Assembly (NCBI GenBank): GCA_016930795.1
Contig: JAFGFY010000070.1
Span: 1 to 40,601, forward strand
Origin: Deltaproteobacteria bacterium
GTDB taxonomy: Bacteria > Desulfobacterota > DSM-4660 > Desulfatiglandales > HGW-15
Length of the DNA: 40,601 nt
Direction: 5' to 3'
Shown: piece after piece, positions 21,919 through 34,964 of the stretch
How positions within the stretch are numbered: the stretch's first letter is position 1
Layout of the letters: every line of letters starts with the position of its first letter
Position numbers and translations under genes: made by a program
Notes under the pieces: model-generated
What the model was told of the DNA's origin: nothing
Seen by the model: only the letters and a program-made list of their open reading frames with translations
The model's database searches: none

Positions 21919-21973
21919 TAATTGACTAGGAGAGACAGATTTAAATGTTGTATGTTACCAGATGAGGTGGGCC

Positions 21974-23068
21974 ATGGAGAAAAACATATTAGAGTTTATA
22001 GAGGAAATCCAATCTGACGCGAGATATGATTCCTTTGATGAAGCGGCTGTCAAACAAGGTATTGTTTTAAAGCTTCTTTCACTTTTAGGCTGGGATCCTT
22101 TTGATATCAATCAAATCAAACCGGAGTATGTCGTAGAAGATGGGAGGGTCGATTTCTCATTGCTGCACAAGAACTCCAGTATGGTATTCATTGGTGTCAA
22201 AAAAGGGACAGACGCCCTCACAGAATATCAGGAGGAGCTATCGGATTACGCGGTTCAGGATGAAGTCCCGCTTGTTGTCTTGACCGACGGCATTGTCTGG
22301 TGGTTTTGCCTTCCGCTTTTAGAAGGATCGGCGGAAGAAAAAAGAATCTATGCCATGAATGTGAATGAGCGAAAAGCCGAGGAATTGGCTCAAAGCTTTG
22401 ATATCTTCCTCTCCAAAGAAAATGTTCAATCCGGGAAGGCCGTAAAGGCCGCGGAAGAAATCCATAATGCTAGGAAGAAGCTCCATTTGATAAGGGAGAG
22501 TCTCCCGAAGGCCTGGGAAAAAGTCCTGAGCGAACCGGAAAAATGGCTTCATGAGATTCTGGCGCAAGCGACAAATGAACTCTGCGGATACATGCCGGAC
22601 GAGGAAACAACAAAAAAGTTTATCGCATCGCAAATAGATGCTAAGGCGGCCATCGCCGGTATTCTAAAACAGAAAGTGGAGGCTCATCCCGAGCAAGACA
22701 AAGCTATAGCGCCAAAGTCAAAAAAAGCGGCCGTCAAAAAGGACGAATTTAAAGGTAAAAGCATCGTCTCTTTTTCGTTGAAGGGGAAAGAACACAAGGT
22801 AGAGTCTTGGACGGGCATGCTTCTCAAGGTTTGTGAGATTATCGCTCAGGAAAACCAGGACGACTTTGATACGGTTCTGACACTGCTTGGAACGAATAGG
22901 GAGTATTTTAGTCGAAACCCCTATGAATTGCTTACTTGTGAGAAGGTCCCGGGGACGCAGATATATGTGGATGTGAATCTGAGTCCTATAGGAGTGGTCG
23001 TTCTCTCCCACAGGGTCCTCTCATTGTTTGGATACAAGGAGAAAGACCTCTCCGTCAAAACCAAATAG
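21974..23068 (+). CDS. Solitary HsdR N-terminal-domain-like protein
   Basis: This 364-residue protein begins like the N-terminal nuclease domain of type I restriction subunits (VKQGIVLKLLSLLGWDPFD, IKPEYVVEDGRVDFSLL). The PD-(D/E)xK core normally has D...ExK. Here D60 is present, but the last part reads FIGVKK, so Gly replaces the catalytic Glu and cleavage is doubtful. After a helical middle and a Lys/Ala-rich linker, residues about 265-360 form a second domain (WTGMLLKVCEIIA, FSRNPYELLTCEKVPGTQIYVDVNLS). That domain also occurs in standalone members. No methylase or specificity gene is adjacent. The ATG at 21974 has GAGGTGG upstream; an ATG four codons earlier has none. Confidence 0.75.
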   Translation: MEKNILEFIEEIQSDARYDSFDEAAVKQGIVLKLLSLLGWDPFDINQIKPEYVVEDGRVDFSLLHKNSSMVFIGVKKGTDALTEYQEELSDYAVQDEVPLVVLTDGIVWWFCLPLLEGSAEEKRIYAMNVNERKAEELAQSFDIFLSKENVQSGKAVKAAEEIHNARKKLHLIRESLPKAWEKVLSEPEKWLHEILAQATNELCGYMPDEETTKKFIASQIDAKAAIAGILKQKVEAHPEQDKAIAPKSKKAAVKKDEFKGKSIVSFSLKGKEHKVESWTGMLLKVCEIIAQENQDDFDTVLTLLGTNREYFSRNPYELLTCEKVPGTQIYVDVNLSPIGVVVLSHRVLSLFGYKEKDLSVKTK

Positions 23069-23343: not shown

Positions 23344-23388
23344 GCCAACTTGACATCCATCAAAACGCGTCGTTCGGGAGGTGTGACC

Positions 23389-25392
23389 ATGAGACGGACA
23401 AAAAGAATGATCACTATTGTTTTTGCCGGTCTTCTCCTTTTAACCATCGGGTGCGCGACCACCCCTTCAAAGCGTCCCGCGATCGGAGAAAAGCCACATT
23501 ATAATAGAACCGTCGCCGTCGGAGACATCCACGGCAGTTTCAGCGGGTTGGTGTCGATTCTCAGGGAAGCCTTCCTCATCGATGACGGGAACCAATGGAT
23601 CGGAGGCGACACTCTGCTGGTGCAAACAGGTGATTTGTTCGATAGGGGGTCGGATGTTCGACCGGTCATGGACTTGTTGATGTCGCTTCAGAGCCAAGCG
23701 GAAGCCTCGGGTGGAAGAGTCGTGGTCCTTTTGGGAAACCATGAAGTATTGAATCTCGTCGGTTCCCTGACATATGTAAACCCGGATGCTTATCGGGATT
23801 TTGTTGGACCTGAGTCTGAAGAAAAACAGCGTCGCGCGTTTGAGCGACGGCAGGCTGTTTTCGGGACTTCCGCCGGCACCGAAAGCGAAGATTCGGAATC
23901 CCGAACACAAGATTGGATGGCCACGCATCCTCCCGGATTTGTAGAATATACCGAGGCCCTGGGCCCGGAAGGGCGTTACGGCAAATGGCTTCGAAGCCAG
24001 CCGGCCATATTCAAGTACGGCGGCACTATCTTTGTTCATGCCGGCATCAGCCCGGCCTTCACGGATCTATCCCTGTCCGCGATCAATGACGATGTGGCTT
24101 CTCAGATAGCTGAATTTGATCGTATCAAGTCCTACTTGGTACAAAAAGGGTACGTGGAGCCCTTCTTTTCTATTTCAGAGGTCATACCCGTAGTGAACGC
24201 GATTTTAGAGTCTGCCGATACCAAGGATCTATCAACTCCCGATCTGGAGACGATTGATCGTTTGAATGAAAGCAAACCCTATCTGGATGGATTTTACGAT
24301 GCATCTTCCCTGATGAATGATGAAGGCCCCCTATGGTTTCGAGGGTTCGCTCAATGGAGCGATGAGCAGCTTGTCTCGTATCTTCCGGAATGGCTTGACA
24401 AAAACAACGCCTGGCGAGTGGTCGTCTCGCACACCCCACAGGCGGACGGAAGGATTCAAGCGAGGCTGGTCGAAAGCCTCTTTCTTATCGACACCGGAAT
24501 GCTCTCCGAATTCTATAAAGGCGGACGTCCCTCAGCATTGGAAATCAAAGACGACGATGTTACGGCGTTGTACGAGTCTGGAGAACGGGTCGTATTTCCC
24601 GCGGCCAAGATCGATTACGTCCCAGGGCATGTCTGGACCGCCAAGGATGGAACCCCTCTCCCGTTTGAGACTCTGGATGAGATCGAGGCATTTTTACTCA
24701 CCGCTTCACCGACGTTCCTAGAAACGATTCGTGCCGGTGTCAATCGACCCAAAAAGTACCTGCTCCACAAAGACGAGCTTCAGACAAGGGCTATCTTTCG
24801 ATGGGAAAGCGAGACCGGCGGGACCATAACCCCGGAGTTCTCCCACAAGACCCGGGGTTTTCGTGACAGTTACCTGAGTGAAATCGCTGCCTATGAAATG
24901 AATCATATTCTCGGCCTCAACAATCTTCCTCCCACGGTCCTGAGAACGATTGACAACAAAGAAGGCACCCTTCAATTATGGGCAGAACAGACCACGCGAG
25001 ATGATGATATGCAACGGAAGGGGATACTTCCACCCGCGGTGACCCCTTGGAACAGGCAAATGTCGGACATGCGGGTATTCGACAACCTGATCAATAACTT
25101 TGATCGGAACCAGACCAATATACTGATCGATGAGAATTGGCAGATGGTATTGATCGATCATACCCGATCCTTTGCCCGAGACAAGACCCTATACCTACCT
25201 GAGAAGATCTCTCGTTGCTCCAGGGGACTGTGGTATGCCCTTCGCCATCTCGATGAGGGGCATGTCAGGGCACTCCTATCCCCTTACCTGAAGACGGATG
25301 AAATCGATGCCTTGTTTGTCCGACAGCAACGGCTCATTGAGTTGATTCAGGATCTCATTATCCGCGATGGAGAAGAGGAAGTGCTTTTTTAA
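23389..25392 (+). CDS. Lipoprotein joining a calcineurin-like phosphatase and a kinase-like domain
   Basis: The 667-residue protein has a lipoprotein signal ending LLTIGC (Cys22), so it should be anchored outside the inner membrane. Residues about 40-350 form a metallophosphatase of the Shewanella-like type. Motifs are VGDIHGSFSGL (45-49), GDLFDRG (81-87), GNHE (116-119), FVHAGISP and VVSHTPQ. Residues about 453-650 resemble atypical kinases. RAIFRW stands at the lysine-strand position, with Arg in place of Lys. YLSEIAAYEMNHILGL holds a likely helix Glu, FDRNQTNIL the catalytic Asp572 and Asn577, and VLIDHTRSF the metal-binding Asp590. The start follows GGGAGG; an upstream in-frame ATG has none. 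It is a single-gene unit. Opposing activities on one exported substrate are inferred, not shown. Confidence 0.82.
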   Translation: MRRTKRMITIVFAGLLLLTIGCATTPSKRPAIGEKPHYNRTVAVGDIHGSFSGLVSILREAFLIDDGNQWIGGDTLLVQTGDLFDRGSDVRPVMDLLMSLQSQAEASGGRVVVLLGNHEVLNLVGSLTYVNPDAYRDFVGPESEEKQRRAFERRQAVFGTSAGTESEDSESRTQDWMATHPPGFVEYTEALGPEGRYGKWLRSQPAIFKYGGTIFVHAGISPAFTDLSLSAINDDVASQIAEFDRIKSYLVQKGYVEPFFSISEVIPVVNAILESADTKDLSTPDLETIDRLNESKPYLDGFYDASSLMNDEGPLWFRGFAQWSDEQLVSYLPEWLDKNNAWRVVVSHTPQADGRIQARLVESLFLIDTGMLSEFYKGGRPSALEIKDDDVTALYESGERVVFPAAKIDYVPGHVWTAKDGTPLPFETLDEIEAFLLTASPTFLETIRAGVNRPKKYLLHKDELQTRAIFRWESETGGTITPEFSHKTRGFRDSYLSEIAAYEMNHILGLNNLPPTVLRTIDNKEGTLQLWAEQTTRDDDMQRKGILPPAVTPWNRQMSDMRVFDNLINNFDRNQTNILIDENWQMVLIDHTRSFARDKTLYLPEKISRCSRGLWYALRHLDEGHVRALLSPYLKTDEIDALFVRQQRLIELIQDLIIRDGEEEVLF

Positions 25393-25567: not shown

Positions 25568-28500
25568 TTAAGGAGCATGGGCGTATCTTTCAGTAAGTTC
25601 CCTGATTCGCTCTGTCATCATTTTCAGGACACCCCTCAGAACATCATGCCGGCTCATCATGATATCATAGAAATTCTCTCTATTGATCTTCAGCAGTAAT
25701 GTTTCATCCATGGCGGTTGCACTCGCCGAACGAGGACTACCGTCTAGAAGAGCCATTTCGCCGAAATAATCCCCTTTGACGTGCCGCCTAACCTCCAATT
25801 GGTCGATGTGAATGCGTATTTCTCCGCTAACTATCACATAGAGACAATCCCCTATGTCACCCTTGCGAAACAGGGTGGAACCCTTCTCTAAGCGCTCCTC
25901 CTCCATAACCTGTGCAACGTGAAAGAGCTCCTCACCGGAAATCCCCTTAAACAGGGACGTACCTTTTAAAATGATGGTCTTCTCAAGAGTTGAAAGCATG
26001 TTCGACTCCTTTATTGCTTCCCGAAAACGGTCTTTAGGAAATTCCCGTAAATCATTCAATACGGTTTTCTCCCGTGCCACATCACGACCTATGATTTCGC
26101 TCTGCAGTCCGTCATCGGGAAAAGATAGCCAATCGACTTCTTCCAATACAGCCACAAGGCCTTGACTCAGGGTATAATCCAGGGCCACACCTGAGGACCA
26201 CTCATTCGTGGATTGAATCCATTGAAGTAATTTTTTGTCTAAGTCATTGGGCAAATCGCGGAAATAACGCCGGCCGGCCAGGGAGCGGTCTTTGATGGAC
26301 ATGGGCTTTATCAACGGAATCATCCAGCCGCTCTCATTCTTGGGCAGGATGTTTTCTAGGACTTCCAGGAGATCCGGTATTTTGCTCGTGTCCCCTGATT
26401 GCACATATATCAAATAGGTTTCAACGGGTGTCTCCGGTACGCGCAACACAAGCAGTTTAAACAATATTACAGCAAGCTTTCGAATTTCGTTCTTGAAGAG
26501 ATCTCTGAGCAGCAGGCTCTCAGATGTCTTCTCAATTCCGCTCAACAGCTGGTAGTCCTCATAAATATCCCGCGCGATTCTTGACCCCTCTTTTTGGAAT
26601 TGGGTCAATACACTAGCGGGAAGGGGATTTTGCCTGGCGATCTCAAGTAACGTATCGACGGTTTCTGCCTGGATGGGTATTGACGACTCTTCGAACAACG
26701 AGACAAGACAGCGAATCGAATTGAGATCGGGGTAAACTCTCAGTGTCCGGATGATCTCAATCTGGTGATACATGGATGTCTCCGGGAGGTAACAGGCACG
26801 ATCCATCGCGGCAATCACTTTATCCGCGGGATATGTCTTTAACAGACCTCGAGCGCTTGTTCGAAGCTGGGGACAATCCAAACAATCAATTACATGGGGT
26901 ATGAGATTTTCATCTCCCCTGTGATGAACGATCTTCAGAGTCTCCATACGAATACGAATGGATTCGCTTTCTAAGCATTCCCGGAGTTGTGCGTCGGTGA
27001 GAAGCGTTGGAATATAAAGAAGCATTTGCAGGACGAGAATTTTCTGTGTTTCATCTTCACTCTTGAGCAATTCACCAAGGGTTGAGCGAGCGACTTCACA
27101 GAACTCTCTGTCCATAATCAGGATAGCGATGGCTGCCGCGGCCCTTATGTCGGCCTCTCCTTCCATTTCTCCTTCAAGCATTTTTCCTAAGCTTGGGATC
27201 ATCTCTGTCATGTGCCTTTTTCCGGCGATGATCAGAGCATCCTTGGTCAGCGGTCCTTGTTCTTCGATCTTTGCCCGGATTTCCGTATTTGAAACGATTT
27301 CGGGTTGTTCAGCAGTCATGCTTAGGATTTTTTTCTGTACCAGAGGAGATGCCTCCCAAAAGAGTCGATTGAGGGTGTTACGCCATGGAATCAATGACAG
27401 GTTCTCAATCAGTTCCAGGACAAAGACTTGTTGGGCTGCTTCATCGCTGTCGAGTGCTCGGTCAATGGTTGCGATAATGTCGCTGTCAGTGGTATCAAGT
27501 CGCATTCGTTCAAAATCCAAACGACGTTTTTCAATGGCCAACATCAGTGATGAAACGTATTCTCTCTTCAGACGATAAGCACTCAGCACCCAGATACCGA
27601 TGGCCACCAAAGCGATAAAGCTAAGGAGACGCAGCAAAACAGGATAGCTCAAATGCCATGTAGTGAGCAATGCATAGATCAAGACTCCCGTGAGCCCCTG
27701 CAAGCCGGTTCTAATCGTGCCCTCGATAAAAAGCTTGCGGTTCTGTTTGCCGTCAGGGCCTACAGGGACCCATAAAAGCTCCAATGAAGTCTTGTTGACA
27801 GTGAACTTGGTAATCTGTTCCAATATTTTCGTGATCAAGGAACTGTAAAACAGCGGATTGATGAGGAGAGACAAAGAACCTATGCCCAGACCAGCGGGCA
27901 GGGCGAGCATGGCCGGCAAAACACCGAACCTGGTCAGTATCCAGCCCGTCAAGAATACCTGCGCAAAAAGAGAAATGGCCCCTGTCAAAGCGTAAAAGAT
28001 GCCAAAGAAGCTGGCGAGATCCTGTTCCATGGGAAAGAATTGATTGGAGAGAATCAAGAATTGGTACTCCACAATCACGGTAGCCACCGCAGCAGCCCCG
28101 ACCGCAAGGGCTATCATCCTCATATAACCGTCTAAGAATCCGGTTTTGTCTCTTCTCTTCTCCTTCCTTGATTTCTCCGATACGCCTCGGATAAAGTATG
28201 GCCGTATCAGCCACGCCATCAGGACACAGCAGAGAATAAATCCGGCGGCCAAAGTCAGCAAATAGGCAGATCCGAATCTATTGACAAAGGAGGGAATGCT
28301 GGTGCCAATCACGATTCTGGCCACCGGACTGCCGGCCAGAATGATGCCGAATAACCGTTTGGCCTGTCGTGAATTAAACACCATTCCAGCCGCCACCCAG
28401 AATTGGACGCTAATGACTGTCGTGATGACATCAACCCATATATATAGAATCGGAATAACCCCCCCCTCAAGATGAGATTGGATCAATATTAGGCTTAAGA

Positions 28501-28771
28501 TAAAGGTCAAACTACTTAAGGTGATACCGGGAATGAGATCCAGACGTTTCGCCAAGAAATTGTAGACGACCACAGTGAGGGCTACGGCACAGGCCGCCGC
28601 AAGGAACATAAGAGGAAGATAGGATATGTCGAACCTGTTAAGGAAATAGGCGTCTCTAGCGGTTTTGCTTACGGTGAGTGTGGCACCAAAGAAAAAGAAA
28701 TAGGTGAAGAGGAGAACAACAGGCTTCCCCTCACCTTCTTTGATGTTGAGGAGTCTGTAGAGGTGTTTCAT
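25568..28771 (-). CDS. NTT transporter-like protein with HEAT repeats and cNMP-binding domain
   Basis: This 1067-residue protein begins with about twelve membrane segments (residues about 15-420) of the ATP/ADP-translocase (NTT) type, with LTVSKTARDAYFLNRF near the start. Residues about 430-800 are helical repeats of the HEAT type with alternating Leu/Ile and Glu/Arg. Residues about 935-1050 form a cyclic-nucleotide-binding domain: LFKGISGEELFHVAQVM, GDCLYVIVSGEIRI, and the phosphate cassette FGEMALLDGSPRSASATA with its Arg. NTT-HEAT fusions occur in free-living bacteria; the cNMP end adds a ligand switch. The ATG at 28771 follows the histidine-kinase stop by four bases, so the two are coupled. 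Nucleotide exchange is not proven; it may serve as a membrane sensor. Confidence 0.85.
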   Translation of the reverse strand: MKHLYRLLNIKEGEGKPVVLLFTYFFFFGATLTVSKTARDAYFLNRFDISYLPLMFLAAACAVALTVVVYNFLAKRLDLIPGITLSSLTFILSLILIQSHLEGGVIPILYIWVDVITTVISVQFWVAAGMVFNSRQAKRLFGIILAGSPVARIVIGTSIPSFVNRFGSAYLLTLAAGFILCCVLMAWLIRPYFIRGVSEKSRKEKRRDKTGFLDGYMRMIALAVGAAAVATVIVEYQFLILSNQFFPMEQDLASFFGIFYALTGAISLFAQVFLTGWILTRFGVLPAMLALPAGLGIGSLSLLINPLFYSSLITKILEQITKFTVNKTSLELLWVPVGPDGKQNRKLFIEGTIRTGLQGLTGVLIYALLTTWHLSYPVLLRLLSFIALVAIGIWVLSAYRLKREYVSSLMLAIEKRRLDFERMRLDTTDSDIIATIDRALDSDEAAQQVFVLELIENLSLIPWRNTLNRLFWEASPLVQKKILSMTAEQPEIVSNTEIRAKIEEQGPLTKDALIIAGKRHMTEMIPSLGKMLEGEMEGEADIRAAAAIAILIMDREFCEVARSTLGELLKSEDETQKILVLQMLLYIPTLLTDAQLRECLESESIRIRMETLKIVHHRGDENLIPHVIDCLDCPQLRTSARGLLKTYPADKVIAAMDRACYLPETSMYHQIEIIRTLRVYPDLNSIRCLVSLFEESSIPIQAETVDTLLEIARQNPLPASVLTQFQKEGSRIARDIYEDYQLLSGIEKTSESLLLRDLFKNEIRKLAVILFKLLVLRVPETPVETYLIYVQSGDTSKIPDLLEVLENILPKNESGWMIPLIKPMSIKDRSLAGRRYFRDLPNDLDKKLLQWIQSTNEWSSGVALDYTLSQGLVAVLEEVDWLSFPDDGLQSEIIGRDVAREKTVLNDLREFPKDRFREAIKESNMLSTLEKTIILKGTSLFKGISGEELFHVAQVMEEERLEKGSTLFRKGDIGDCLYVIVSGEIRIHIDQLEVRRHVKGDYFGEMALLDGSPRSASATAMDETLLLKINRENFYDIMMSRHDVLRGVLKMMTERIRELTERYAHAP

Positions 28772-28775
28772 GGGC

Positions 28776-30296
28776 TCACTGTAATTTGAGAGGGAAGACA
28801 ATGGAAAACGTGCTTTGTCCGGAGGAAAGGCATTCTGATTTATCCCTAATAAATTGACATTTTGAAATTCTGCCCGGACATAGATCTTCGTCTTTTGGAA
28901 TATATTTACAGCGTGAGCTTTTGAAATCCAAAGAGAATCCTAAACGTTCAGAAAAGCATTTTGTCCTAAGCAGATCTGATCCGGACCCTCCGGCGTTGAA
29001 CTCATAAGCCCTTTTAGACGAATACAACTCAGTCTTCTGTGTATGAAAAAACCCGCCGAAAATCAGTTGTTGGTTATCAGGGGTAATCCCGACACCGAAA
29101 TCCTGAAAACTGACCCGGATTTCGTCATCTTTTTTTCTGGCAACGATTTTGATTGTCCCCTCATCCGGGGTGTTCTCAATGGCATTTCTGAGCAAACCCG
29201 AAAAAACCTTGTCCAGCACATTCCTGTCCATATACACGGAAAGGTCCTTATCTAAATCAAGGGTGATGTTCAATTCTCTTTGTCCCATAGAGGCGATGGA
29301 GCGTTCATATACATCACTCAAGAAAGGAGTAAGAGCGATTTGCTCCATATGGACTTCTTCCTTATGGAATAAGGCCTCCAGTCGTTTGCAGATATACTCC
29401 AACACTTCAGCGCCTTCGCCCCGATATGATTCATTGAATTCCCAAGCCAAATCGGCAGCGCTTTGCAGAAGACCCAGAATCCCCTCTTTTTCTTTCACTC
29501 GTTTCTGATTGAGGATGTCATCAATCCTTGCCTGCAGATCGAGCAAACGTTTTACATTCCGACGGCCACGATCCAGCATGTTATCAAGGCCTGAAATATT
29601 CGCCTCATTGAGTTCTCTCTCAACACGACTGAGGATGGCCATGATCACGGCCAAAGGTGTTCTGAGTTCATGGGATAGATGGTTAATCACCTTTTCTTTG
29701 GCCAGATCCAGAACCCTAAGATCGTCGTAAAGCTTGGCGTTTTCAATGGCAATAGCCATATAGTGAGACGCGGAAATAAGAAATGCCTGATCTTCTTTAT
29801 TGAAATCACCTGTCTTCTTATTCAATGCCTGGAGTGTTCCAATACACTTTTTTTCTCGATTGATAAGCGGAATGCTCAAGATGTTTCGGGTCTTGAAACC
29901 GGTCTTCTTATCGACCTCCGGCAAAAACCGGGGATCGCTGTACGCGTCATTGATGATCAGGGGGCTCCTGTTTTGAAAAACCCAGCCCGCTACCCCTCTG
30001 TCTTTGGGGATCCGGACTTGGTCTTTCTTAAGGTCTGTTGACACCATAGACCATAATTTCTCCCCTGCAGAGTCAATCAAGAACACCGATGCTTTTTCCG
30101 TGTTCATGACCTGATTGGTTTGTTCAATGATCAAAGGAAACAGGGCCTCGATGTCCATTTCAGAGGTCATAATCTGACCCAATTCAAACAGCATTTTTTG
30201 ACGCCGGATCGTTTCCGCGGCAATCCGTTCACTTTCTCTTCGGAGAGTTCCTCTTCTTTCGTCCTGTGATTTCTTACCGTTCAAGGTCGTCACCAT
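28776..30296 (-). CDS. GAF-domain sensor histidine kinase
   Basis: This 506-residue cytoplasmic kinase has a GAF domain (about residues 45-195, with GVAGWVFQNRSPLIIND), a dimerisation/phosphoacceptor helix with HLSHELRTPLAV (His209), and an ATPase domain with NAIENTPDEG and FQDFGVGI. The ATP lid is unusual: after GGFFHTQKTELYSSKRAYEF the glycine box reads GGSGSDLLR. A Cys-bearing insertion follows (RCKYIPKDEDLCPGRISKC) before the last strand FSIVFPLKL. The cysteines may bind metal or sense redox state. No membrane segment is seen. Its stop lies four bases before the NTT-HEAT-cNMP start. A response regulator is divergent across a 268-base gap and is the likely partner. No clear Shine-Dalgarno precedes the ATG. 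Confidence 0.9.
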   Translation of the reverse strand: MVTTLNGKKSQDERRGTLRRESERIAAETIRRQKMLFELGQIMTSEMDIEALFPLIIEQTNQVMNTEKASVFLIDSAGEKLWSMVSTDLKKDQVRIPKDRGVAGWVFQNRSPLIINDAYSDPRFLPEVDKKTGFKTRNILSIPLINREKKCIGTLQALNKKTGDFNKEDQAFLISASHYMAIAIENAKLYDDLRVLDLAKEKVINHLSHELRTPLAVIMAILSRVERELNEANISGLDNMLDRGRRNVKRLLDLQARIDDILNQKRVKEKEGILGLLQSAADLAWEFNESYRGEGAEVLEYICKRLEALFHKEEVHMEQIALTPFLSDVYERSIASMGQRELNITLDLDKDLSVYMDRNVLDKVFSGLLRNAIENTPDEGTIKIVARKKDDEIRVSFQDFGVGITPDNQQLIFGGFFHTQKTELYSSKRAYEFNAGGSGSDLLRTKCFSERLGFSLDFKSSRCKYIPKDEDLCPGRISKCQFIRDKSECLSSGQSTFSIVFPLKLQ

Positions 30297-30358
30297 TCAT
30301 GCGGCTTATGTCACGTAGAGTTAGAGGGCATTTTATAATTGAACTGAGATTATTCAAG

Positions 30359-30439
30359 GAAAATGCTCTCACCTCCAACATTTTTTCATTCCGACCGACC
30401 CTTCATTTGGTATGAAGACCCCAAATAAGGAGCATTTTC
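30359..30439. promoter_or_regulatory. Inverted repeats between kinase and response regulator
   Basis: GAAAATGCTC (30359-30368) and GAGCATTTTC (30430-30439) are perfect inverted copies 61 bases apart, and ATTTGG pairs with CCAAAT between them. The site lies in the divergent control region of the kinase and the regulator. It could be a shared operator or a looping RNA leader. Confidence 0.4.
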
Positions 30440-30564
30440 ATCTATGGAGCAGTTTTGACTTGACTATATACTAAGGCATCTGATAGGAACGTAGCGGTGA
30501 TATGATAATCCATTGAATTCAAAACGCCTAGTAAAAATAGACCGTTAGCAAGGAGGAACGTGAC

Positions 30565-31101
30565 ATGGCAACGGATGACATTCTAAAGGGGAAAAAGATC
30601 CTCATTGTCGATGATGAAGAAGATATTCTTGAAATATTGAAGCTTTTCCTCGAACAGTGTGACATAGAGACCGCGTCTACCTTTGATGAGGCCAAGGAAC
30701 TATTAGAGAAGAGCACTTATGATGTAGCCATCTTGGACATTATGGGTGTCAGGGGCTTTGAACTCTTGGGGATCGCCAGCGAGAGGGCAACCCCGGCCCT
30801 GATGCTCACCGCGCACGGTCTAAATCCTGAAAATCTGATAAAATCCATCCAAGAAGGCGCCAAATCCTACATCCCCAAAGAAAAGATGAATGAGATAGAT
30901 GTCTATCTCAAAGAGATATTCTTTGCCAAAGAGGAGGGAGTGGAGAAGCCGGGAAATTGGTTTGCCCGCCTCAGTTCTTTCTTTGATGAGCGGTTCGGCT
31001 CCAATTGGAAAAAAGAGGATGAGAAGTTTTGGGCGGAATTTGACAAGAATTTCAAAGTTTCAGAGGAGAAGCTTGCTAAGATCAAGTATTGGATTGGATA
31101 G
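30565..31101 (+). CDS. Single-receiver response regulator
   Basis: This 178-residue protein has one receiver domain (about residues 8-125) and a charged, aromatic C-terminal tail of about 50 residues that has no DNA-binding motif. Receiver residues are complete: Asp16-Asp17, phosphoacceptor Asp58 (AILDIMG), Thr82 (LTAHG) and Lys105 (SYIPK). The tail (NWFARLSSFFDERFGSNW, then KFWAEFDKNF) may bind a protein or membrane partner. AAGGAGG precedes the ATG. It faces away from the GAF histidine kinase at 28776 and is its probable partner. It would act by protein contact, perhaps on the NTT-HEAT-cNMP protein. Confidence 0.88.
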   Translation: MATDDILKGKKILIVDDEEDILEILKLFLEQCDIETASTFDEAKELLEKSTYDVAILDIMGVRGFELLGIASERATPALMLTAHGLNPENLIKSIQEGAKSYIPKEKMNEIDVYLKEIFFAKEEGVEKPGNWFARLSSFFDERFGSNWKKEDEKFWAEFDKNFKVSEEKLAKIKYWIG

Positions 31102-31433: not shown

Positions 31434-32864
31434 TCAGACCATTGGGTTCTCTACCGCCCTTTCGGTTATGTTTTTGTTCTCAATCCCGATCACCACGGCC
31501 AGGGCAAACCACACGACAACAAGCCCAATACAGAAAAGCGCGAATTGGCTTGTCTGAAAAGCCAACCAGGTTGTGCCAATATAAACCAGTACAGCAGACA
31601 AAACATCTCCTGCGCGAACAAAAAAGGTGTCGGTGGCTTGTTTGGCCTTGTACTTTTCTTCTCTTGTCGTAGGCAAGAAAAGCGCGTGGCGCACTGTATT
31701 TTGGAGAGAATAATCCGTAGAGTTTTCCGCTGTCTTGGCCCAACGGATGATGGTCATGACAGGGATAAAAGCGATAACGAAATATCCGCATAAGGCAATG
31801 AAGGGCAAAACAAGCAGCGCGATTCGAATACCTAGATATTTTAGAATTCGGGAGACAAGAAATAGCTGTATAAGCAGTCCTGCCAAATTCACACCGGTAT
31901 AAAACTTGGCATAGAAGTTGCCAATATACTCTTCGGTATAGGATTGAATATATTCAGAGTTGATCTTTGCAAGGCCCTCTTCCTTCGCACCGCCCTCGAT
32001 CAGCCTTTTTTGCGCATATTCAATGGCCTTTTCTGCAATTTCAGGGTCGCCGGCAAGCTCCTCTGCTCTGTTTTGCACTGTACGACCCAAGATATACTCA
32101 CCCGTCGTATTCACCCAATTTGTGAACAACATGAGAAGAGCAATGAACAAAAGATATCTTGTCTTGAAGACGAGACTGAATGCTCCTCCTTTTTCGAAGG
32201 GTTGACTCACTTCTTTTGTTCTGTCTTCTGCTCGATCCCTGTCCGCTTTGTCGCGTGAATCGACAATGTTTGTCAGAATCAGGCTGCCAAGAAGAAGAGC
32301 CCCCGCGACAAGCAGGAGTTGGTAGACTCCCAACGGTTCAATCAGAGCGTCCGTGATCATACCTCCCAAAACAGCCCCCGAGGAGGCGCCAAACGCGATG
32401 ATGACAAAGATCCGTTTACCCGCTTCAGGCGTATATATGTCATTGGCAAATGCCCAGAATTGAGCGACCACCATCATATTGAATATGCCTAGCCACAAGA
32501 AAAATACTACGCCGAGGGGAACTCTTATGAGCGCGAGAATATAGAAAACTGCCAGACACCCAACAAAAAAACAGGTCACTGAATTGATCAACTGTCGACG
32601 GGGAAACCGACCTGCAAGCCTGGCATACAGAGGCACAATCCCAAGGAACAAGAGGGCCTGTCCCGCGGAGGCATAGCTCTTAATTTCAGCCCCTCCCCCT
32701 GTGAGAATCAAGGCCTCACGTACGGGTTTCATGATGTAATATGACGTGAGGATAAGGAATACGCTCAGAAATAGCAGGATGGCGGATCTCCCTTCACCTT
32801 TCTTGACTTCCGTAAAGAGGTTCAGGAATTTTTCTATGTTGTTTTTTGGGCGGGTTGTCGTCAT
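31434..32864 (-). CDS. NTT/MFS-type transporter (ATP/ADP translocase-like)
   Basis: This 476-residue membrane protein has about twelve hydrophobic segments. The start LILTSYYIMKPVREALILTGGGAE is typical of NTT-like carriers in free-living bacteria, as is NMMVVAQFWAFANDIYTPEAGKRIF. A charged loop of about 70 residues (about 250-330, GDPEIAEKAIEYAQKRLIEGG) interrupts the middle. It is related in plan to the NTT part of the gene at 25568 but lacks the HEAT and cNMP parts. It lies 11 bases after the sppA stop, so the two form an operon. The substrate is unknown; nucleotides are possible but not supported by direct evidence. Confidence 0.85.
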   Translation of the reverse strand: MTTTRPKNNIEKFLNLFTEVKKGEGRSAILLFLSVFLILTSYYIMKPVREALILTGGGAEIKSYASAGQALLFLGIVPLYARLAGRFPRRQLINSVTCFFVGCLAVFYILALIRVPLGVVFFLWLGIFNMMVVAQFWAFANDIYTPEAGKRIFVIIAFGASSGAVLGGMITDALIEPLGVYQLLLVAGALLLGSLILTNIVDSRDKADRDRAEDRTKEVSQPFEKGGAFSLVFKTRYLLFIALLMLFTNWVNTTGEYILGRTVQNRAEELAGDPEIAEKAIEYAQKRLIEGGAKEEGLAKINSEYIQSYTEEYIGNFYAKFYTGVNLAGLLIQLFLVSRILKYLGIRIALLVLPFIALCGYFVIAFIPVMTIIRWAKTAENSTDYSLQNTVRHALFLPTTREEKYKAKQATDTFFVRAGDVLSAVLVYIGTTWLAFQTSQFALFCIGLVVVWFALAVVIGIENKNITERAVENPMV

Positions 32865-32875
32865 GAAGAAACTTA

Positions 32876-34654
32876 TTATCGTGGGACCAAATCGTAAGGG
32901 AGCCTCGCGTAAACGCCCTTCGGATCATTTAAAAGGGCGATCTTCTTCTTTAGTTCCTCCAAGCCTCTGAAGCCATCCCCTATAGGAGATGGAGGCGTGA
33001 TTCCAAGTGCCTTCATAATCTCCTCAGCAACTCCCCTCTTCTTCTGATACTGAACGAGACTGTAATCCTCTCCAAGCCCCGCCCTCATGGCAGCGGCATC
33101 AATGGCATCGTAGAGTCCGCCCAACCGATCCACCAACCCAAGTCTGTGCGCCTCCACACCGGACCAGACTCTTCCCTGGGCGATTTCCTCGAGAACCTCT
33201 CGGTCCAATTTTCTCCCCTCACAGACCTTGGTCAAGAACTCATCGTAGATGAAGTCCACCAGCCTCTGAATCACGGCCAGTTCCTCTTTTGTCTTGTTCC
33301 TAAAGATAGATATCATATCCGCTTTTTCAGCGGTCCGCACAACATCCACATTGATTCCAAAATCATTCAACAGTCTTTCCACATTGGGCAGCATCCCCCA
33401 GACACCGATAGAGCCTGTGATGGTATTGGGCCACGCAATAATCTCGTCCGCGTATGCAGAGATCCAGTAGCCCCCGGACGCGGCCACTGTTCCCATCGAG
33501 ACCACAAGGGGTTTCTGTTGCTTGAGGAGTCGTGTCTCTCTTTGAATCACCTCGGACGCGGTTGCACTCCCCCCGGGGCTGTTCACACGCAGAACCACTG
33601 CCTTAACATTTTCGTCATTTCTGGCTTTGCGCAGCAACTTGGCCAGAGTGTCACCCCCCACCTCGTTTTCATTTGGTCCCTCAACAATCTCACCTTCGGC
33701 GTATATTATGGCGATCTGGTTCGTTGATCCGTGCTTCTCTGGTGTGATGGCCTTTTGGTAAGAAGCCACTGAGATCACGTTTTTGAGTTCCTCCCCAGGC
33801 TTGGACCCGGTCAACTCCTTCAATTCACTGAGAACATCGTCATAGTAGATCGATTTATCCAGAAGACCTTCCCTCACTCCGGTTTCGGCCCCTAAGTAAC
33901 CGTCATCTGACATCAGGACATGTAGTCTTTTCAAATCTACATTCCTCGACAACGCGATGGCTTCCAGATAGACATCGGCAATATCGTTCAAGTATTTTTC
34001 AATCTGTTCACGATTCTCTTCGCTCATTTTTTCTAAAATATAGGGTTCGACCGCAGACTTATACTTGCCAACACGAGTGACCTGAACATCAATCCCATAT
34101 TTGTCAAATGCCTTCTTGAAGAATATGATTTGAGTGGCCAAACCATTGAATTCGAATGTCCCAAAAGGGTTCATATAGAGGCGATCGGCCAGGGAGGCAA
34201 CAAAGTAATTGGCCTCATCATAGACACTCTCAAAGGCGATAATCGGTTTTCCTGATTCCTTGAATCTCACCAAAGACTCCCTTACCTCTTTCAAGGCCGC
34301 CCAACCTGATTGGTACCCGGCATTTGGGACTTGCCCTGTCAAGTAGATGCCCACAATACGGTCGTCATTTGAAGCAGACTCTATGGATTCCAATACGGTC
34401 CGAAGAGGAACGGCTTCTTTCATTTCATCGCCTAATGCCCCTCCCTGCAACACATCTTGGAAAGATATGCCCGTAGGTTTGTCTGAAATAGGTATGGAGA
34501 GATCCAGGGCTAAAACCGCTTTCTTGGGCATCGGAGGGCCCTTTTCAAATAACGTGACGACGCCAATCAGGAACACAAAAATACAGACCATGAGGAAAGA
34601 AAAGACAAACAATCCAAGAACTGTCGCAAAAAAATTTCTCAAAAAAGCCTTCAT
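32876..34654 (-). CDS. sppA: Signal peptide peptidase SppA, long form
   Basis: SppA cleaves leftover signal peptides in the inner membrane. The 592-residue protein has an N-terminal anchor (about residues 5-33) and two ClpP-fold halves, as in the 67-kDa enterobacterial form. The general-base Lys (about 199) lies in GKYKSAVEPYILEKMSEENR. The nucleophile Ser (about 392) lies in GTVAASGGYWISAYAD, with LRVNSPGGSATASEVI before it. The start at 34654 has AAAGGA six bases upstream, while an ATG five codons earlier has none. It is followed after 11 bases by the NTT-like transporter gene. It is divergent from the peptidase gene at 34965; the gap between them holds no other gene. Confidence 0.92.
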   Translation of the reverse strand: MKAFLRNFFATVLGLFVFSFLMVCIFVFLIGVVTLFEKGPPMPKKAVLALDLSIPISDKPTGISFQDVLQGGALGDEMKEAVPLRTVLESIESASNDDRIVGIYLTGQVPNAGYQSGWAALKEVRESLVRFKESGKPIIAFESVYDEANYFVASLADRLYMNPFGTFEFNGLATQIIFFKKAFDKYGIDVQVTRVGKYKSAVEPYILEKMSEENREQIEKYLNDIADVYLEAIALSRNVDLKRLHVLMSDDGYLGAETGVREGLLDKSIYYDDVLSELKELTGSKPGEELKNVISVASYQKAITPEKHGSTNQIAIIYAEGEIVEGPNENEVGGDTLAKLLRKARNDENVKAVVLRVNSPGGSATASEVIQRETRLLKQQKPLVVSMGTVAASGGYWISAYADEIIAWPNTITGSIGVWGMLPNVERLLNDFGINVDVVRTAEKADMISIFRNKTKEELAVIQRLVDFIYDEFLTKVCEGRKLDREVLEEIAQGRVWSGVEAHRLGLVDRLGGLYDAIDAAAMRAGLGEDYSLVQYQKKRGVAEEIMKALGITPPSPIGDGFRGLEELKKKIALLNDPKGVYARLPYDLVPR

Positions 34655-34964
34655 CTCAAATCCTTTCATAGTCGAAATTGTTGAAGATATATCGGATAAA
34701 ACGATCGCTTCTGTTTGCGCAAGTGTAGGAAGAAACGAACAGATGTGTCAAGGAGAAAAATTTTGTGAAAATATGTGGTTATGGCGTTTTCCTCACAGCT
34801 CTTTCAGAAAAATATGAAGGAGCGGATTGCAAAACATGGGATTGTCCGGTAGATTACATGTTTTGGATATGAACACAAGACTCTGGAGGTCATGTCCGAC
34901 TTTGCAAATGGTAATCAGGGTGTTTCCGACTATTCATTTTAACCCTGATAGAAGGGAAGCTTCT

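Follow-up and report, generated by a model that had tools for sequence, protein, structure and literature searches.

To our knowledge, the periplasm of bacteria is generally considered to lack a supply of ATP; the lumen of the eukaryotic secretory pathway likewise depends on ATP import, and FAM20-like kinases are known from the animal Golgi. The route by which ATP would reach the periplasm is unexplained, and E. coli is without an ATP/ADP translocase (reviewed in PMC7432876). Fusions of a nucleotide transporter (NTT) with HEAT repeats and a cyclic-nucleotide-binding domain (cNBD) have been described from free-living bacteria, cyanobacteria and oomycetes, and in free-living bacteria they form a widespread, single-origin family to which no role is assigned (Major, Embley and Williams 2017, PMC5381601). 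In the same study, cAMP was already suggested as a possible regulator of ATP uptake by NTTs, and no partner genes beyond the cNBD were given (PMC5381601). Here we analysed a stretch of 40,601 nucleotides from a Deltaproteobacteria bacterium (contig JAFGFY010000070.1, hereafter the window), which encodes an NTT-HEAT-cNBD membrane protein, a second, single-domain NTT and, convergent with the former, a gene termed K1 for a predicted lipoprotein that joins a phosphatase to a FAM20-like kinase domain. The fusion is not new, because Major et al. described it (PMC5381601); the predicted exported kinase-like neighbours and the overlapping cyclases are absent from that description.

We searched for K1 genome-wide in 17 genomes of the family and 85 genomes of the class (L and G labels denote loci and genomes, and K1, K2 and K3 the exported protein types named in this analysis; the genomes are drafts from two phyla, and many contigs end within clusters). 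Seven K1 copies were found in the 85 class genomes, five of which directly adjoin an NTT gene. K1 converges with the NTT-HEAT-cNBD gene in the window (175 bp between the two stops) and in G016 (gap 112 bp), shares a strand with a single-domain NTT in G016 (12 bp) and G008 (20 bp), and diverges from an NTT remnant in G008. As G008 and G016 are of the same genus, these five copies represent three arrangements. K1 is a conserved partner gene of NTTs. The remnant in G008 (L041:8897-9529) is cut down to its C-terminal half and appears to be a decayed copy. Among 84 genomes from the phylum to which L003 belongs, a search that had no positive control there found no K1. A lone K1 match in G094 (E = 1e-7) was excluded because it was short and lay in a GC-rich stretch with doubtful frames.

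The window copy of K1 (23350-25392, plus strand; 680 amino acids) has its likely start at an in-frame ATG at 23389. K1 N-termini carry a putative hydrophobic signal sequence by inspection and a hydropathy rule, and the window copy has a lipobox (LTIGC) by inspection; export was called throughout by such hydropathy rules and by reading. The PPP-type phosphatase domain (23452-24600) contains the GDxHG, GDxxDRG and GNHE motifs as GDIHG, GDLFDRG and GNHE (Metallophos, 1.4e-10), and among PDB entries it matches a Shewanella protein-tyrosine phosphatase best (2.3e-23). It thus has its motifs in common with the Shewanella-like PPP phosphatases (PDB 1v73, 2z72 and 2zbm, matched at 2e-23), unlike which K1 is a predicted lipoprotein with a fused kinase domain. 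For that second domain (24601-25392, FDNLINNFDRNQTNILID...LIDHTRSF), a six-sequence K1 profile searched against the whole PDB gave FAM20B (1.2e-10), FAM20A (3e-10) and FAM20C (4.4e-7) as top matches, and the window domain alone also placed FAM20B and FAM20A first. The K1 residues for catalysis (the DR motif, in NxDRNxxN) and for metal binding (the Asp of LIDH) align with NADRHHYE and HLDN, respectively, of FAM20B. These nearest solved relatives, the secretory-pathway kinases FAM20B and FAM20C, work outside the cytosol (PMC7948968); compared with them, the K1 domain is bacterial, shorter and fused to a phosphatase. It also matches the SCO1664 family, under the cut-off of that family. An AlphaFold model of the kinase domain alone, from single-sequence input, reached a pLDDT of 37 and was discarded. 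We know of no pairing of CotH with NTTs. CotH, a spore coat kinase likened here to K1 by description and not by sequence, is a bacterial atypical kinase distantly related to FAM20C that acts on an outer cell layer (PMC7821199).

The NTT-HEAT-cNBD protein (25568-28771, minus strand; 1067 amino acids, ATG at 28771) contains a TLC/NTT domain at residues 117-405, which scores 28.7 bits with PF03219 (cut-off 21), and a cNMP_binding domain at residues 959-1040, for which the match is strong (PF00027, 5e-22). The HEAT_2 match between them is weak and under the cut-off (E = 0.0089), and HEAT repeats are clear in relatives (2e-15 in L101), so that the domain order is that of the fusion of Major et al. 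2017. The phosphate-binding cassette, FGEMALLDGSPRSA, has its Glu and Arg, both of which are retained in most of 41 rows. The relatives in L045 (same family, 49-50%) and L003 (a Poribacteria metagenome-assembled genome (MAG), 53%) are 49-53% identical to the window protein, and that in L094 is about 52% identical over the NTT part; many carrier-domain residues, including charged ones in the membrane part, are invariant among such relatives. The second NTT (31434-32864, minus strand; 476 amino acids) scores 50.3 bits with PF03219 against the cut-off of 21 (2.3e-13) and is 38-39% identical to the NTTs paired with K1 on the same strand in L043 and L044. Both window NTTs score under the TIGR00769 cut-off. 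A profile of the single-domain set matches the solved NTT structure 9j3n at 6.5e-29, which places it in a common carrier family with the plastid/parasite ATP/ADP translocator (AtNTT1, PDB 9j3j and 9j3n). The gene for signal peptide peptidase SppA (32876-34669; TIGR00705, 1.1e-152) precedes the second NTT by 11 bp, also on the minus strand, and the interval 21962-23068, upstream of K1, gave a sub-threshold HsdR N-terminal (type I restriction) match and a weak SeqA C-terminal match.

Including K1, three unrelated families of exported kinase-like or ATP-binding proteins share clusters with either or both of a single-domain NTT and a HEAT-cNBD membrane protein, both being there in the window. K3, an exported PPDK_N protein (PF01326, 1e-28), was found at six loci (one frameshifted) in genera of two families, and in every case a single-domain NTT comes directly after it. 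Where the sequence continues 3' of this pair, it encodes an exported protein and a transmembrane HEAT-cNBD protein with weak NTT similarity, and an exported 5'-nucleotidase diverges from the operon. In the K3 clusters (L128:2683-14774, L058:2234-13446 and L162:51-7009), a weak phosphohistidine-domain match stands before the ATP-binding domain of the PPDK_N protein, an order that recalls glucan water dikinase. In G378, K2, a HipA-like lipoprotein, has a single NTT and an Omp85 gene on one side and an NTT-HEAT-cNBD gene on the other. Its assignment rests on kinase-type motifs (VIKFD, HVDIKGPN and IDFG) and sub-threshold HipA matches (0.016-0.19); a K2 profile searched against the PDB found no kinase, and the K1 and K2 profiles gave no meaningful alignment. 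An Omp85 barrel gene is directly 5' of the K2-type lipoprotein gene in L101:64-7142, with NTTs on both sides, in L121 and in L122:7643-10758. L122 (G385) and L123 (G346), from two Poribacteria MAGs, have one gene set at near-equal sequence and may be shared contigs or close strains. Exported phosphatases were also observed near NTTs, namely a tyrosine phosphatase 3' of the NTT in L131 and metallophosphatases adjoining NTT-HEAT genes in L094, L126 and L127. Among NTT-anchored loci, exported phospho-enzymes made up 10 of 95 immediate NTT neighbours versus 3 of 379 more distant genes, a comparison that is only descriptive because some categories were chosen after the neighbours had been seen. Binomial and Fisher values are likewise not taken as probabilities, since the copies share ancestry and the categories are partly post hoc; the genome-wide placement of K1 and K3 is a stronger argument than the neighbour counts.

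Cyclases recur beside the fused transporters. Sensor-type class III cyclases overlap or directly precede NTT-HEAT-cNBD genes at L061, L135 and L050/L053, which suggests that they may be a dedicated source of cyclic nucleotide for the cNBD, and an FHA-cyclase adjoins the NTT remnant in L041. These cyclases (L050:5401-10457, L053:5236-10286, L061:4567-9315 and L135:7255-12031) are membrane sensors with dCache, HAMP and MASE10 domains. Because cyclases adjoin NTT-HEAT-cNBD genes and the cassette Glu and Arg are kept, the sequences support cyclic nucleotide as an input to the NTT-HEAT-cNBD protein. We considered and rejected a role in anti-phage defence: library matches fall mainly on the cNBD, a domain that Pycsar effectors share, and the window holds no cyclase or TIR effector that would speak for defence.

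An earlier note on this DNA had centred on the genes on the other side of the transporter, and its description of them holds. The soluble histidine kinase (28776-30296, minus strand; GAF, HisKA and HATPase_c by Pfam) ends in a TGA at 28778-28776, and four bases (GCCC) separate it from the transporter ATG at 28771, as the note had stated. Its reading of an NTT part, a HEAT-like middle and a cyclic-nucleotide-binding end with the full cassette was borne out by Pfam, with a weak HEAT match. The regulator pointing the other way (30565-31101, plus strand; 178 amino acids) is indeed receiver-only, with one receiver domain (residues 12-109; PF00072, 5.8e-14) whose conserved acidic pair, phospho-acceptor Asp, Thr and Lys are present by reading, followed by a tail of about 70 residues. 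The G2 region of the kinase reads GGSGSDLLRTK where a GxGLGL motif is usual; its C-terminal part is unusual, with FNAGGSGSDLLRTKCFSERLGF and a Cys-rich insert, CKYIPKDEDLCPGRISKCQF, replacing the usual G2 box. When the kinase-transporter pair was surveyed, it was absent from the closest relatives found: upstream of the transporter, L045 has a TPR protein, L003 an ion channel and L094 an exported phosphoesterase. The best family relatives of the kinase, L183-L186 (52% over 220 amino acids in L183, 47% over 191 in L185, 39% in L184), have no NTT beside them. The histidine kinases that do stand next to NTT-HEAT genes elsewhere, at 15 bp in L097 and divergently in L166, are unrelated ones. As different kinds of sensor recur beside NTT-HEAT genes, the findings support the histidine kinase as one of several alternative sensory additions. 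The nucleotide-sensing interpretation of the note is therefore supported in its cyclic-nucleotide input, given the cassette and the abutting class III cyclases, and not in this histidine kinase and receiver as a conserved core. The note did not mention the second NTT or the convergent K1 gene, which is the conserved partner.

We tentatively favour, at somewhat less than an even chance, a reading of the locus as an envelope phosphorylation module, in which NTTs would supply periplasmic ATP to exported kinases and the HEAT-cNBD form would be gated by cyclic nucleotide. The NTT-HEAT-cNBD protein and the single-domain NTT would move nucleotide across the inner membrane, the most likely exchange being cytoplasmic ATP outward against ADP or AMP inward. 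The periplasmic ATP would feed K1, a lipoprotein predicted to be exported, whose FAM20-like kinase domain may phosphorylate envelope or surface targets and whose PPP phosphatase domain would take the phosphate off again. The HEAT-cNBD part would gate transport upon cAMP or cGMP, and the histidine kinase and receiver would form a lineage-specific sensory add-on.

Several points weigh against this module. The K1 kinase domain falls under the Pfam FAM20C cut-off (PF06702; 17.9-18.5 bits versus 26.8), and the expected ATP-binding Lys is Arg in four of six K1 copies, that of the window included (it is Lys in L043 and L044), because of which the domain is FAM20-like and not a proven member of FAM20. 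In AtNTT1, the nucleotide-binding lysines K155 and K527 are needed for ATP and ADP binding (PMC3306366), whereas by alignment inspection their equivalents are not kept in the two window NTTs; the transported substrate may for this reason differ from that of AtNTT1. At the K527 position the second NTT has Asp, and only the L128-type and L104 NTTs have the Lys there; K155 is not kept, and mapping onto the HEAT form is less certain. The window K1 and transporter genes are convergent and so do not form one operon. Two of the seven K1 copies (L042, at a contig edge, and L073) show no NTT nearby, one of them lacking its upstream flank. Among the K2 loci, no NTT is seen in L122 and L123, and the sequence of L121 is too short for a judgement. 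Nor are the copies independent, as they amount to three K1 arrangements, one K2 event and one K3 operon lineage. In a related family, many of the NTT-HEAT-cNBD genes adjoin cytoplasmic ATP-grasp-like and peptide-transport genes, and this more distant family probably has a different role. Finally, what the sequences show directly is the domain content, the phosphatase motifs, the recurrence of exported kinase-like enzymes next to NTT genes and that of cyclases next to NTT-HEAT-cNBD genes. From the signal sequence alone we infer that K1 is exported; kinase activity, substrate, direction of transport and gating are likewise inferred. The neighbourhood of the more distant family (L047, L048, L059, L129, L134, L137, L139 and L140) recurs, with ATP-grasp-like proteins, an acetyltransferase-like protein and a peptide ABC transporter.

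Nucleotide salvage offers another account, in which NTTs import nucleotides, the adjoining exported phosphatases or nucleotidases process external nucleotides or phosphate esters, and the kinase-like domain binds or acts on a small molecule. Characterised parasite NTTs do import nucleotides (PMC5381601), the 5'-nucleotidase diverges from the K3-NTT operon, and the phosphatases adjoining NTTs in L126 and L127 are of purple-acid type. Salvage nevertheless leaves three unrelated kinase or ATP-binding families behind signal peptides unexplained, and the phosphatase of the window most closely resembles a protein phosphatase rather than a nucleotidase; we regard salvage as unlikely. The NTT-HEAT-cNBD protein might instead no longer transport and act as a cyclic-nucleotide sensor or scaffold anchored in the membrane, with partners bound by its HEAT part, which would fit the missing AtNTT1 nucleotide-contact lysines and a weak PF03219 match next to a well-kept cNBD. 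The many invariant carrier-domain residues, membrane charges included, argue otherwise, as does the second, single-domain NTT that is often in the cluster (window, L101 and L128) and fits a transport function, and this possibility is distinctly improbable.

The two-component model of the earlier note, which took the NTT part as a nucleotide receptor or regulated carrier that the histidine kinase and receiver control, cyclic nucleotide being a second input, draws on the 4-bp spacing and on the unrelated histidine kinases and the cyclases that adjoin other NTT-HEAT genes. It is very unlikely, given that this kinase stands beside the transporter in no relative examined and its own relatives are without NTTs, and that the receiver protein has no output domain and nothing ties it physically to the transporter. 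That K1, the NTTs, the histidine kinase and the receiver are unrelated, chance neighbours would agree with the mixture of convergent and divergent orientations in the window and with sampling that rests on few genera. Against this, K1 occurs at only 7 places in 85 genomes, and 5 of these adjoin an NTT in three arrangements, where the adjacency expected by chance is about 0.1-0.2% per copy (assuming at most 3 NTT genes in about 4500), so we hold chance to be the most improbable of these accounts.

Beyond the module proposed for this locus, it is possible, if doubtful, that NTT carriers under cyclic-nucleotide control load the periplasm with ATP for exported kinases in free-living bacteria, as a counterpart of the ATP-supplied, FAM20-containing eukaryotic secretory lumen. 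We found no paper in the open-access PMC literature that links NTTs of free-living bacteria to exported kinases. If NTTs of free-living bacteria do feed exported kinases, bacteria could reversibly phosphorylate envelope proteins or glycans, the old question of what NTTs do outside parasites and plastids would have an answer that can be tested, and studies of how FAM20-type secretory kinases evolved would have a bacterial point of reference.

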